Below the pieces are notes generated by a model. The model worked only from the letters and a program-made list of their open reading frames with translations, ran no database searches and was not told where the DNA came from. Positions 24,289-29,407 of a stretch of DNA of 64,000 nt are shown piece by piece. Origin of the DNA: a bacterium (lineage in GTDB: Bacteria; Elusimicrobiota; Elusimicrobia; UBA1565; UBA9628); contig JAKAQO010000004.1 of the NCBI GenBank assembly GCA_021822495.1, positions 123,152-187,151 on the forward strand. Reading direction: 5' to 3'. The translations under genes and the position numbers were made by a program. How positions within the stretch are numbered: position 1 is the first letter of the stretch; each line of letters opens with the position of its first letter.

Positions 24289-24981
24289 TTAGTTCGGGCT
24301 GTCTCCGGGAAGGACATTCTCGGGAATGTCTTTAAAGGAAGTCGGCTTTCCATTCTCAAAGTTGAGAACCCAAGCGCGGTCAAAAACGTCTCCCTTCCAG
24401 GAATCCGGAGCCGAGTCCCAACCAAAAGAATGGACGAGATTGGGAATATCGTGATGTTCCCAACAAATGAGAACCATCTTTCCGGCATAATCAAGACTGG
24501 TCTTAATGGACTGAGCCATCGCGTCCCCATCTTTTTTCGCGTAATCCTCATTAATGGAAAGCCCCAAACTATCGGCTAAAGGAGTCACGGTTTCTATCGG
24601 CCGAAAACTGCCGTCATCCGAGCTGGGCCGCATCGCGTAAATCGCGGCCGGAGTCCCATGTTGAGTTACCTCTGGGTTGTTTTTGAAAAATTCAACCAGG
24701 GCCTGGGCGCGAGCGCGGCCTCTGTCATTTAAATGATTGCCGACCGGAGGCTTCTCCGCATGCCGAATAATGATGATTTGCGCGGGACCGAGAGTCTCGG
24801 GAGAAGACAGATTCAAAGACACGGGTTCCGGAGCGGCGTCTTCCGCAGGCAAGGAGGAAGGCTGGGAATTAACGCTCGCAAAAGTTGGTGCTTCCGACCC
24901 TTTCGATTCAAAGGACCCGGCGGAATAAAGGCGCGGCGATAAGCTTAAGGACAGAAACAACGCCAGGAGATTTCTTTTCAT
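24289..24981 (-). CDS. Exported histidine phosphatase family protein
   Basis: 230 residues. Signal peptide about 1-20 (KRNLLALFLSLSLSPRLYS) and a Pro/Ser/Glu-rich linker to about 65. A histidine-phosphatase-like domain follows with IIIRHAEKP (RHG motif, phospho-His), LNDRGRARAQALVEFF, IYAMRPSSDDGSFRPIET and the second catalytic His in LICWEHHDIP. Substrate unknown. It overlaps the membrane-protein gene by 4 bases and is the last gene of the exported Clp unit. Confidence 0.83.
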   Translation of the reverse strand: MKRNLLALFLSLSLSPRLYSAGSFESKGSEAPTFASVNSQPSSLPAEDAAPEPVSLNLSSPETLGPAQIIIIRHAEKPPVGNHLNDRGRARAQALVEFFKNNPEVTQHGTPAAIYAMRPSSDDGSFRPIETVTPLADSLGLSINEDYAKKDGDAMAQSIKTSLDYAGKMVLICWEHHDIPNLVHSFGWDSAPDSWKGDVFDRAWVLNFENGKPTSFKDIPENVLPGDSPN

Positions 24982-26729
24982 TTAGATTGGCTCCATTTAA
25001 ACCAGTTCTTTTTTTTAGCGTTTAAGGCGGCCAAATCTTCTTGAATCCGGGGATTTTCCTGGGCTAATTTCCTGACCGCGCGGTAATTTAAAATCCAAAA
25101 GGGAAGAGCGAGCCCCCACAAAAGAAGGGTCGCCACCGGAACGCCGTGGGTATAACGCATGAGAAATGGATCGAGAAAGAGCCCGGGGAATTTAACGATA
25201 AACCGGGCAATCGCCAAGGTTTCCCGCGTCATGGTCACTCCTTTAACCGTCGCGGCCGCAATCGCCCCTGAATGCAGAATCTTTCCGACAAGACTCCGAA
25301 AGGGAACATTCATCCTGACCGGGAAAAACCACGGCTTCATGAAATACTTTTGATGAATTTTAGGCACCACATTCATGACCGTGGAAAGATAGCGATCCCC
25401 AAAACCGACCAGCCACACCATCATGTTCGTCTGCCAGGTGAAAATCATATGCCAATCTCCATGCGCCTGCATCACCGCCAAGGGGTAGAAAAGAAGGGCG
25501 CTGATCATCATCCTTTTGGTTGATTCCCAACTCCGATTTTCGCCCCTTTGAACGAAGGCCGCGTAACTGTCGCTAAAAACGGCAATCAGGAGAGCAAAAA
25601 CCCCTGAGGCGACGGCCGGCCCTAAAGTAAAGGTATCAGCATTAGGATTAAAATGGGCGGCCAAGGCCGCCATTCCGTAGGCCAGGCCAAATTGAATGGA
25701 GGCCGATACCGTGCCGCGAAAAACGTCTCCATAGTGGACCGGCTCAAGCGTTCCTTTAATCCAATGTTTCCACCAGCGCAGGCTCCGATGAAAGAAAGAA
25801 GGGACCGCGTTTTGATCTCCCAAGGCCGGAGATAAAAATGATTTATTAGAAGCGGCGTCAATCATCAAAACCGCGCGATAGGGCTCTCCAAAAGAGCCTT
25901 TCAAAAGTCCCCAGGGATGGATTTTGCGGTTGATTAAAAGTCGGGAGCGGTAGGTGTTCAAACGTTTTGAGCCAAGCATAGGATCTGGAGAATTTCCTGT
26001 TTTTTTGGAAGCCTCGGAGCCGTCAACCTGAATATGGGCTAGTCCCTCATCGACCGCCAAAGAGGGATTGGAAACAACGGCAATCAAGGGATGGGAACCC
26101 TTAACGGCAAAACGAATCGCCACCTGACCATCGATGAGCTTGGCCTCAATTTCCCCAACCCCGGGTTTAGCGGAATGAAAACGGCTCTGTTCGACATCGC
26201 GAATAAACGAGGCTCTATCAGATTTGTATTCAGAAGAGTTAAATTTTAAATCGAGGTCCTGAACAAAATGAGAATAAAAATCAAAAAAATCAGACTCGCT
26301 AATGACCGTCTCCGGCGAATGGACTTTAAGAGCCTTGGAAATCGAAGAATAAATTTGACCAATAGAACGGAGGTTTGAAACAGACTGGGCCGCCTTGGCA
26401 AGAGATTGCGGCGGTGTCTTTGTTTCTTCATTGATAACCGGAGCGGGAAGCTTTCGACCATCCGGGCGGAGTTCTAGGTCTAAGCGCTCCTCTGAGTTGG
26501 GGACAGTCCCCAATTCCCGGGGCAAATCAGGAAAATTTAGCGAAGAACCAGGGAGAGCAGCATCCCCAAGAGAAGCGCTGACGGGACTTAAAGAAGGAAG
26601 GCTTTCGGGAACGGCCTCCCGAAAGCCTTCGGCGCAAAGAGGCGAAAGAACGGAGAAGAAAACCTGGGCGAGACCCAGAAAAACCGCGAGGGCCTTAAGT
26701 CCAGGACGTTTCCGTTTATAGAGCTTCAA
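24978..26729 (-). CDS. Exported/membrane protein of unknown function in the Clp unit
   Basis: 583 residues from a TTG at 26729 with GGAGAGG upstream and an overlap of 14 bases with the Clp gene. Signal-like helix about 12-33 (LKALAVFLGLAQVFFSVL), then a Pro/Ser-rich linker and an exported globular part (about 115-300). From about 345 to 560 there are five or so hydrophobic segments (for example VSASIQFGLAYGMAALAAHF, VASGVFALLIAVF and PVATLLLWGLALPFWIL). No family recognised. Residues ELGTVPN in the linker are encoded by a perfect REP-like palindrome. It is bracketed by a Clp ATPase and a phosphatase, both with export signals. Confidence 0.65.
   Translation of the reverse strand: MKLYKRKRPGLKALAVFLGLAQVFFSVLSPLCAEGFREAVPESLPSLSPVSASLGDAALPGSSLNFPDLPRELGTVPNSEERLDLELRPDGRKLPAPVINEETKTPPQSLAKAAQSVSNLRSIGQIYSSISKALKVHSPETVISESDFFDFYSHFVQDLDLKFNSSEYKSDRASFIRDVEQSRFHSAKPGVGEIEAKLIDGQVAIRFAVKGSHPLIAVVSNPSLAVDEGLAHIQVDGSEASKKTGNSPDPMLGSKRLNTYRSRLLINRKIHPWGLLKGSFGEPYRAVLMIDAASNKSFLSPALGDQNAVPSFFHRSLRWWKHWIKGTLEPVHYGDVFRGTVSASIQFGLAYGMAALAAHFNPNADTFTLGPAVASGVFALLIAVFSDSYAAFVQRGENRSWESTKRMMISALLFYPLAVMQAHGDWHMIFTWQTNMMVWLVGFGDRYLSTVMNVVPKIHQKYFMKPWFFPVRMNVPFRSLVGKILHSGAIAAATVKGVTMTRETLAIARFIVKFPGLFLDPFLMRYTHGVPVATLLLWGLALPFWILNYRAVRKLAQENPRIQEDLAALNAKKKNWFKWSQSK
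26497..26513. repeat. REP-like palindrome inside a coding region
   Basis: TTGGGGAC, A, GTCCCCAA: a 17-base perfect palindrome, the same core as the hairpins at 2874 and 10538. Here it encodes part of RELGTVPNSE in the linker of the 24978-26729 product. Confidence 0.7.
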
Positions 26730-29337
26730 ATTTCAGGCCCTCTCCATTGGGACTGACGACGACGCGCAAACGTTGCGGCTGATCAGACTTCAAGGATTCC
26801 ATCGCCAAGGGCCGCGTCAGATACTGGTCTATCGCGCGGCGCATCGGGCGCGCGCCGTAAGACTCATCATAGCCCTTCGACAAGAGAAAATCTCGCGCCC
26901 CAAGACTCATTTCAAGTTCAATGCCTTTTTCTTGCGCGATGCGTTGAACCTGGACAAGCATCTGGTCCAAGATTTCTCCTGCGGCAGTCTTGGTCAAGGA
27001 GTTAAAGGCCACGACATCTCCAATGCGGTTGTAGAACTCAGGCCTGAGGATATGCTTAATCCCTTCGTTCACCGTCATTTTTTTCTCCGCCAGAGTCGCT
27101 TCCTCATTGTCCGCATTGAAGCCAAGATGATGAGGACGCTCGACATAGGCTTGGCTCATGTAGTTAGCGCTCATGATAATAATTGTATGACTGAAATCGA
27201 CAATTTTTCCCGAATTATCGGTCAAATGTCCTTCATCCAAAACCTGAAGAAGAAGATTGAGAAAATCCGGGCTTGCTTTATCGATTTCATCAAGCAAGAT
27301 GACGCTATAGGGGTTTCTCCTCACTTTTTCGGTTAAATCTCCCGGCTTATCCGAGCCGATATATCCCGGAGCCGCGCCGATAGCCCGCGACTGCTGGAAA
27401 GAGTCATGATACTCAGACATATCCAGGCGAATAAGATTTTTCTCGCTTCCGAACAAAAACTCCGTCAAAGCCTTGGCCGTTTCCGTCTTTCCCACTCCAG
27501 TCGGACCGGTAAAGAGAAAGCTTAAAGGGGCTTTCGTCATTTTAAAACCGGCGCGATCGGCCCGAACGGCCTCGGAAACAACTTTGAGGGCCTCATCCTG
27601 GCCTTTAATCCTTTGTTTTAAAAAGCTCTCAATGTGGGTCAGCTTATCTTTTTTTGCCTGATCCATTTTTTCGACTGGAATTCCGCTGATTCTGGAAACC
27701 ACCGCCCGCACATCATTTTCGGTCACCGTATTGCGGCCTAAAGCGCGGACTGCCGCCCCGGCCCCGTCTAAAACGTCAATGGCGCTATCCGGCAGATTTC
27801 GGCCGTAAACGTAACGCCCGGCCAGTTCCGCCGCGGCCTTAAGCGCCGCTTCTTCATAGACTACCTGATGATGTTTTTCAAATCCGGGCTTGAGAGTCTG
27901 GAGAATCGCCACAGTCTCTTGGGCGCTGGGAGCCTTGACTGTTACGGTTTGAAGCCGTCTTTCTAAAGCCGCGTCTTTTTCGATGTACTGGCGGTATTCA
28001 TCCAAGGTCGTCGCTCCAATCATCTGAACTGTCCCTCTAGCCAAAGCGGTTTTGAGCATATTGGCCATATTCATCGAGTTTCCTTTGTCGCCCGATGAAT
28101 TAGCTCCGACAATTTGATGAAGCTCATCAATAAAAACAATGATGTTTGGATTTTCTTCGAGTTCTCTAATGAGACTACTCACACGCTCCTCGAATTCTCC
28201 CCGGTATTTCGTGCCCGCAATCAAGGCCCCCACATCCAAGGAAACAATTCGTTTGCCTTCGAGTCCGGGAACTTCGCCCGCCGCGATTTTTTGAGCCAAA
28301 CCTTCCACAATCGCGGTTTTTCCCACTCCGGCTTCGCCGATCAGAACCGCGTTTCTCTTTCTTTTTTGGTTGAGGATATTGATGAGTTCCGCGATTTCAT
28401 GCTCGCGACCATAAACCGGGTCCATTTTTCCAGCGGCGGCCTGCGCGGTTAAATCGCTTCCGAAATTATCCAAGGTCGGGGTATGGGAAACTCTCGCCGC
28501 CACGCGAGCGGGAATCGCAAGCTGTCCATTATTCTGCTCCCAGCCTTTTTGAAGATCGTCATTGGCCGCTTTTTCAACACCCAAACCCTTGAGCCCTTCA
28601 TTTCCCGCTTCTCGCTTGAGTTCAACAACTTTATTGACGCGATCTAAATACTCAAGATAGGTGATATTTGAAAAATTATCCGGGCGCGAGAGATCGAAAT
28701 AATGCTCCAAGGCCCGCAAAACCTTAAAGCCTTTAAGAGGAACGCCATTTGGATTTTCCTCTGACGGCTCATCATGTCCCGCTCGGCGTTCAAATTGAAT
28801 CGGGCTAAAGCCGTCTTTGTCTTTTTTTCCGTAAAAAGCCTCCTTGGCTTTGGCCAAATTTTTCTCAACGCGATTTTCAGCGCCTTGAAGCCCGTCTTCT
28901 TTTTTATCCTTGGCCTTATCTTGATGGGCCGATTGATCCCCGTTTTCTCCCGAAACTTCTTGGTTGGGGCTGTCGGATTCATTTTCCGCTGAGTTTCCTT
29001 GATTATTATCTTCCGCTTTGATGCGAATAGTTTTCGGCTTTTGCGGCTGGTTCTTGCCTTCGCTATCGCCAGAATTCGAATTTAGAGCTTGAATGGATTG
29101 AAAAATATTTGAGGAATTATCAAGGTTGCCTGGTAAGTTGGAAATCCTATCGCCAAGCGGAGATAAATTATTTGAAATTCCCATAGGCAAGGACAAACCT
29201 TGAAAGCCGCCGGAAAGCTCGCCCATCGTGCGCACGCTTTCTTGAGCCAAAACTGAAGAGAAACTTGAACCTACAAGCGCTAACGCCAACACGACGCTTA
29301 AGCTTCTGCGCACCGGCCCCGAATTTCTTATGATCAT
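26716..29337 (-). CDS. Clp/Hsp100-type AAA+ unfoldase with N-terminal export signal
   Basis: 873 residues from ATG 29337, chosen for the AAGGAG site 5 bases before it. Residues 1-31 look like a signal peptide (Arg10-Arg11, hydrophobic core 12-23, cut after VLA). Residues 35-195 are low-complexity and acidic, rich in Asn, Gln, Ser and Glu; no typical Clp N-domain is seen. D1: TPTLDNFGSDLT, Walker A GEAGVGKT (334-341), pore loop KYRG (377-380), Walker B FIDEL, Arg finger ERRLQ. D2: Walker A GPTGVGKT (611-618), pore loop GYIG, Walker B LLDEID (681-686), LGF (738-740) where ClpP-binding loops stand, and YGARPMRRAI. The ClpB middle domain is absent, as in ClpA. A cytosolic Clp would not need a signal peptide. 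It heads a unit with two other exported proteins. Confidence 0.85.
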   Translation of the reverse strand: MIIRNSGPVRRSLSVVLALALVGSSFSSVLAQESVRTMGELSGGFQGLSLPMGISNNLSPLGDRISNLPGNLDNSSNIFQSIQALNSNSGDSEGKNQPQKPKTIRIKAEDNNQGNSAENESDSPNQEVSGENGDQSAHQDKAKDKKEDGLQGAENRVEKNLAKAKEAFYGKKDKDGFSPIQFERRAGHDEPSEENPNGVPLKGFKVLRALEHYFDLSRPDNFSNITYLEYLDRVNKVVELKREAGNEGLKGLGVEKAANDDLQKGWEQNNGQLAIPARVAARVSHTPTLDNFGSDLTAQAAAGKMDPVYGREHEIAELINILNQKRKRNAVLIGEAGVGKTAIVEGLAQKIAAGEVPGLEGKRIVSLDVGALIAGTKYRGEFEERVSSLIRELEENPNIIVFIDELHQIVGANSSGDKGNSMNMANMLKTALARGTVQMIGATTLDEYRQYIEKDAALERRLQTVTVKAPSAQETVAILQTLKPGFEKHHQVVYEEAALKAAAELAGRYVYGRNLPDSAIDVLDGAGAAVRALGRNTVTENDVRAVVSRISGIPVEKMDQAKKDKLTHIESFLKQRIKGQDEALKVVSEAVRADRAGFKMTKAPLSFLFTGPTGVGKTETAKALTEFLFGSEKNLIRLDMSEYHDSFQQSRAIGAAPGYIGSDKPGDLTEKVRRNPYSVILLDEIDKASPDFLNLLLQVLDEGHLTDNSGKIVDFSHTIIIMSANYMSQAYVERPHHLGFNADNEEATLAEKKMTVNEGIKHILRPEFYNRIGDVVAFNSLTKTAAGEILDQMLVQVQRIAQEKGIELEMSLGARDFLLSKGYDESYGARPMRRAIDQYLTRPLAMESLKSDQPQRLRVVVSPNGEGLKFEAL

Positions 29338-29407
29338 AATTTCTCCTTTTGTCTCCGAACCTCTCTGTAAAGGATAAAACAAGATAAGCTCCGAGAACAG
29401 GGTCTTT

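Follow-up and report, generated by a model that had tools for sequence, protein, structure and literature searches.

The 64,000-nucleotide stretch analysed here (the window), which belongs to an Elusimicrobiota MAG, encodes an Hsp100-type unfoldase in which two AAA+ modules follow an N-terminal export signal, and such signal-bearing Clp proteins form a class within one order of Elusimicrobiota, not the oddity of a single gene. We are very confident that this class is real and conserved. Clp-type ATP-driven unfoldases normally reside inside bacterial cells, and in the open-access literature we found no description of a bacterial Hsp100 outside the cytosol. The probability that the Clp rings face outward is placed somewhat under one half.

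The earlier note on this DNA had described two complete ClpA/ClpC-type AAA+ modules, and domain and motif searches bore this out. The frame and the features of its core are as follows.

29337 to 26716, minus strand: Clp ATPase open reading frame, 873 aa
27733 to 28482, minus strand: D1 AAA+ module, residues 286-535 (Pfam and structure-match alignment)
28315 to 28338, minus strand: D1 Walker A, GEAGVGKT (motif table)
28189 to 28215, minus strand: D1 pore loop, GTKYRGEFE (motif table)
28123 to 28140, minus strand: D1 Walker B, IVFIDE (motif table)
26719 to 27732, minus strand: D2 AAA+ module and C-terminal small domain, residues 536-873
27484 to 27507, minus strand: D2 Walker A, GPTGVGKT (motif table)
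27349 to 27375, minus strand: D2 pore loop, AAPGYIGSD, missing from three congeners
27277 to 27303, minus strand: D2 Walker B, VILLDEIDK (motif table)
27118 to 27126, minus strand: LGF tripeptide where ClpP would dock, aligned with KYVGFN of B. subtilis ClpC

Pfam recognized AAA (residues 331-445), AAA_lid_9 (471-565), AAA_2 (605-773) and ClpB_D2-small (781-852) but found no Clp_N, and the best solved-structure match was B. subtilis ClpC (E 2e-161). The Walker A and B motifs of D1 and D2, the pore-loop tyrosines (GTKYRG and PGYIG), the Arg motifs and HLGFN are all intact. The spacing of the two Walker A motifs is 277 residues, close to that of E. coli ClpA (281) and shorter than in ClpC (338) or ClpB (402), so the protein has no middle domain, in agreement with what had been proposed. 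The cut-offs of the NCBIfam equivalogs were not reached for either ClpA (620.7 bits against 993) or ClpB (686 bits against 1232). The LGF tripeptide (residues 738-740) does lie where a ClpP-binding loop is expected, since HLGFN aligns on KYVGFN, the ClpP-docking tripeptide of B. subtilis ClpC; the docking-loop motif is defined as (L/I/V)-G-(F/L) (PMC8745299). An xGF loop was present in 13 of the 14 Clps of the signal-bearing type, the remaining one (L050) reading KGL, and was absent from ClpB. The Tyr pore loops reported for the window protein are likewise both present, but the one in D2 is not constant in the genus: three congeners (L095:3330-6011, L096:1-1881 and L097:3342-6011) lack 12 D2 residues including the pore-loop 1 tyrosine (GYIG) and keep the Walker motifs and the LGF loop, so that D2 may no longer thread substrate in these proteins. 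AlphaFold models of the 873-aa Clp and of its 583-aa neighbour were poor (mean pLDDT 41.8 and 33.5, respectively) and were set aside.

The region upstream of D1 carries the features that set the protein apart.

29343 to 29350, minus strand: Shine-Dalgarno sequence AAAAGGAG, 5 nt before the ATG (read directly)
29245 to 29337, minus strand: signal peptide, residues 1-31 (R10R11, hydrophobic core, VLA/Q)
28723 to 29244, minus strand: acidic low-complexity linker rich in N, Q and S, residues 32-205, replacing the Clp N-domain
28483 to 28722, minus strand: helical segment before D1, residues 206-285, conserved within the genus

Upstream of the Clp ATG stands AAAAGGAGAAATT, and three congeners likewise have AAAGGAG ahead of the start. 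A wrong start was rejected because of this conserved Shine-Dalgarno sequence; the next methionine is residue 38, and a start there would still leave the protein without Clp_N. By direct reading and our own hydropathy scan, residues 1-31 comprise a positive n-region with Arg10-Arg11, a 19-residue hydrophobic core, which is the sole membrane-like segment of the 873-aa protein, and an AxA-type site (VLA/Q). RR-x-L-S is kept in 4/4 congeneric Clp N-termini, and AxA-type signals begin the order-level relatives whose N-terminus is readable; two signal-bearing relatives (L045 and L047) have no ATG nearby and would need another start codon. The description of residues 1-31 as a signal sequence with an Arg pair is thus upheld by reading, hydropathy and conservation. 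To judge from its motifs, the signal would be of Sec type or possibly of Tat type: TatC is present in the genome, and the Tat motif S/T-R-R-x-F-L-K is matched in part, the congeners showing RR-x-L-S with the last positions unmatched and the distant relatives having no RR. The acidic Asn/Gln/Ser-rich segment said to replace the Clp N-domain is found as residues 32-205, with a pI of 5.06 and 17.8% N+Q; in the low-confidence AlphaFold model this linker is predicted to be unstructured.

The comparison with homologs, which the earlier note had proposed as a check, showed the signal conserved in all four congeneric N-termini and in relatives from the order; residues 1-31 did not read as non-signal, and no homolog had its start after them in a normal ClpC N-domain. 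A scan of named genomes with the Clp alone gave no match, but one with the 583-aa neighbour gave four named relatives, which place the host in Elusimicrobia. Across 38 genomes, proteins with an uninterrupted match to both D1 and D2 were present in the genus and in further families of its order, and in a survey of 149 Elusimicrobiota genomes this D1+D2 type appeared, among the matches listed, only in that order, although forms with low scores may have escaped notice. The same order also holds signal-free Clps of similar Walker spacing (L046 and L048). A single origin of the 14 Clp rows, compared with two, was not rejected (AU p 0.062), so that these rows cannot be counted as independent.

Given these N-termini, we considered whether the hydrophobic N-terminus is translated but does not work as a signal and is merely drifting on what would be a normal Clp of the cytosol. 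The linker behind the signal is poorly conserved, with 35% identity between two species, as this explanation would have it. However, identity between species pairs is 70-75% in the signal as against 35-64% in the linker, the dN/dS of the signal region is 0.18 (G000-G003) and 0.43 (G002-G004), both below 0.45, and the signal recurs in distant relatives and in FtsH and M50 classes. The Clp signal region is under purifying selection, and the drift explanation, which would also have to accommodate the loss of cysteine described below, is improbable.

The Clp cores of the signal class contain 0 Cys in 10,993 aa (19 rows), whereas other Clp cores contain 49 Cys in 16,132 aa. L127 had first been classed as an ordinary ClpC; it was found to start with a signal, and no other row of the order in the comparison set was Cys-free. 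Cores were Cys-free in 20/20 rows of the signal class, in 15 of which the signal was read directly and five of which (L015, L041, L051, L055 and L139) are 5'-truncated and were assigned by clade or type, and at least one Cys was present in 26/27 other cores of the phylum (Fisher 2e-12). It is the class as a whole that gives the test its force, which the shared descent of the Clp rows reduces. For the window Clp alone, the probability of having no Cys at the ordinary Clp-core rate is 0.17, which is weak by itself. Wherever the motif RGELQ-C-IGATT, common in ClpC and ClpB, is readable in the class, its Cys is replaced. The same tendency was seen in FtsH, whose cores are Cys-free in 11/13 signal-bearing proteins versus 0/28 canonical ones (L155, L163 and L165 being counted as canonical by score). 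Within the window, Cys makes up 1.0% of the residues encoded by 29 cytosolic genes and 0.23% of those in six mature exported proteins, both small hand-picked sets. Exclusion of Cys from exported proteins has been described in other bacteria (PMC12453122). Four proteins (L057, L138, L139 and L140), otherwise nearly Cys-free, have a conserved C-x5-C (e.g. CSYDYWC) near an M50 region, a pair that might form a disulfide.

Two genes follow the Clp gene.

24978 to 26729, minus strand: downstream gene, 583 aa, with its own signal, a linker and a polytopic C-terminal part; no known family
24289 to 24981, minus strand: next gene, 230 aa, with a signal and a RHAEK motif resembling that of histidine phosphatases (by eye)

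The Clp stop overlaps the 583-aa gene, whose product is found in the genus only; in three congeners it too lies next to the Clp gene, and three keep the order Clp, 583 aa, 230 aa. The 230-aa protein has no Pfam match. Downstream of the operon, two congeneric loci carry a 473-residue frame (L095:10453-11871 and L096:6429-7847) whose printed beginnings are identical; it was not seen at the corresponding position of the window and may be a mobile element inserted recently.

Fusion partners of the Clp in other genera are an LspA-like domain (Peptidase_A8; E 1e-4 and 8e-8) and an Rce1-like domain (matches of E 2e-4 and E 5e-4 that fall narrowly short of the Pfam cut-off) in which EExxxR, FxxxH and HxxxN are visible by eye; Clp-class loci with trailing membrane segments and LspA- or Rce1-like domains are L044, L045, L047, L052 and L053. 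The first three of these end in a region that by eye looks like a HAD-like phosphatase. M50 occurs in an AAA_2 class that is more distantly related. The genome of the window itself encodes, besides canonical FtsH, two signal-bearing FtsH proteins that have no Cys beyond the signal. One is a tandem-AAA FtsH with M41 (HEAGH; L133:4852-7917, contig C10), the other an AAA+ protease with a long linker (L173, contig C2). Collectively, one Elusimicrobiota order has a signal-bearing AAA+ quality-control set consisting of Clp, FtsH and M50-, LspA- and Rce1-like fusions.

Our preferred reading, which we hold tentatively and at a little short of even confidence, is that the window protein, an unfoldase of ClpA/ClpC type, has lost its N-domain, bears a signal and a disordered linker, and is exported, with its rings on the extracytoplasmic side acting on envelope proteins. 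The signal would target the protein to the membrane and then be cut by signal peptidase, the ATPase rings would be placed on the extracytoplasmic face, and there they would unfold envelope proteins, possibly in concert with the polytopic 583-aa product of the overlapping next gene. Outward rings would need ATP in the envelope, and its supply is an assumed step. Conservation of the signal and loss of Cys favour a Clp that is handled as an exported protein; the retained ClpP loop, the charges of the cousins' membrane segments and the ATP problem favour a ring that faces the cytosol. Bacterial envelope chaperones are held to be ATP-independent because of the lack of ATP in the periplasm. This lack has been reported in the literature (PMC8144458). 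As a source of ATP, an ATP/ADP translocase was rejected, being absent from five genomes of the genus, with weak partial matches elsewhere. An extracytoplasmic ClpP partner was also rejected, given that 0/31 ClpP loci read start with a signal. A DnaK with a signal was considered as well, but judged from frame length most of the open frames matching DnaK are too short to hold a signal plus a linker.

The window protein might instead be tethered to the membrane and face the cytosol, its signal serving as an anchor or targeting element, its LGF loop docking ClpP, and membrane or nascent exported proteins being degraded in the manner of FtsH. We regard this as a serious possibility, though one clearly below even probability. 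ATP is at hand in the cytosol, and the near-constant xGF loop, which ClpB lacks, would retain its use. The membrane-segment charges of the signal-bearing FtsH and M50 cousins also fit a normal orientation: two-span signal-bearing FtsH proteins (e.g. L173, L175, L178 and L182) have 3-5 K/R before the first span and about 1 after it, and four of five members of the M50 class show a similar bias, which points to a cytosolic linker despite the signal. In L133 and L188, a single span lies between the linker and the AAA modules and is followed by K/R, charges that point to AAA modules in the cytosol; both are nevertheless Cys-free, so that loss of Cys follows the signal and is no proof of side. Behind the AAA modules of the LspA and Rce1 fusions, hydropathy fits a hairpin or a single span alike. 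However, the signal is the only membrane segment of the window Clp itself, the charges flanking it put the N-terminus inside and the rest outside, signal-peptidase sites are conserved, and a cytosol-facing ring leaves the total loss of Cys unexplained.

By analogy with Plasmodium HSP101, the Clp might also be exported to act in or against another cell that has ATP. HSP101, a part of the PTEX translocon, is an Hsp100 unfoldase active outside the cytosol, and its presence in the vacuole lumen depends on a signal (PMC7355975, PMC6550532). Joint conservation of signal and ATPase motifs is compatible with such a role, but the analysis identified neither a secretion machinery nor a host, and the many membrane segments of the cousins would hold them in the inner membrane; we consider it very improbable. 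HSP101 further differs from the window Clp in being eukaryotic and of ClpB type with a middle domain and an N-domain, and no translocon was seen around the window Clp.

The wider form of the preferred, outward-facing reading, in which one order would have moved its unfoldases and proteases (Clp, FtsH and intramembrane-protease fusions) to the extracytoplasmic side, would likewise need envelope ATP, and we consider it doubtful. The earlier note had offered an anchor of odd topology, action before or during export, or an envelope unfoldase; its description of the protein was right, and none of its options is proved. A class of signal-bearing, Cys-free ATPases would either break the rule of ATP-independence or mean that a textbook signal sits on a cytosol-facing machine, and either outcome bears on signal peptides as predictors of location.

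Compared with known systems, the window Clp shares two AAA+ modules, the Walker, pore and Arg motifs and the xGF docking loop with ClpA and ClpC, and the absence of a middle domain with ClpA; it differs from both in having no N-domain, in its signal and disordered linker and in being Cys-free, and three of its congeners in the loss of the D2 pore loop. It resembles FtsH as a candidate for membrane-linked AAA+ quality control with a parallel signal-bearing FtsH class in the same order, but FtsH belongs to another AAA family, has its M41 protease covalently attached and is established to face the cytosol. Another lineage-specific Clp class is ClpI of Actinomycetota, with a variable N-domain and LGF in some members but not in others; it has a ClpC-like middle domain, and the words "signal" and "transmembrane" are not mentioned in its description (PMC10149685). 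Clp-type AAA modules also occur, together with phospholipase-D-like repeats recognized by eye, in part of a 17,755-aa open frame (L056, G036:C5:38000-57000); huge proteins have been reported for the phylum (PMC11573180).
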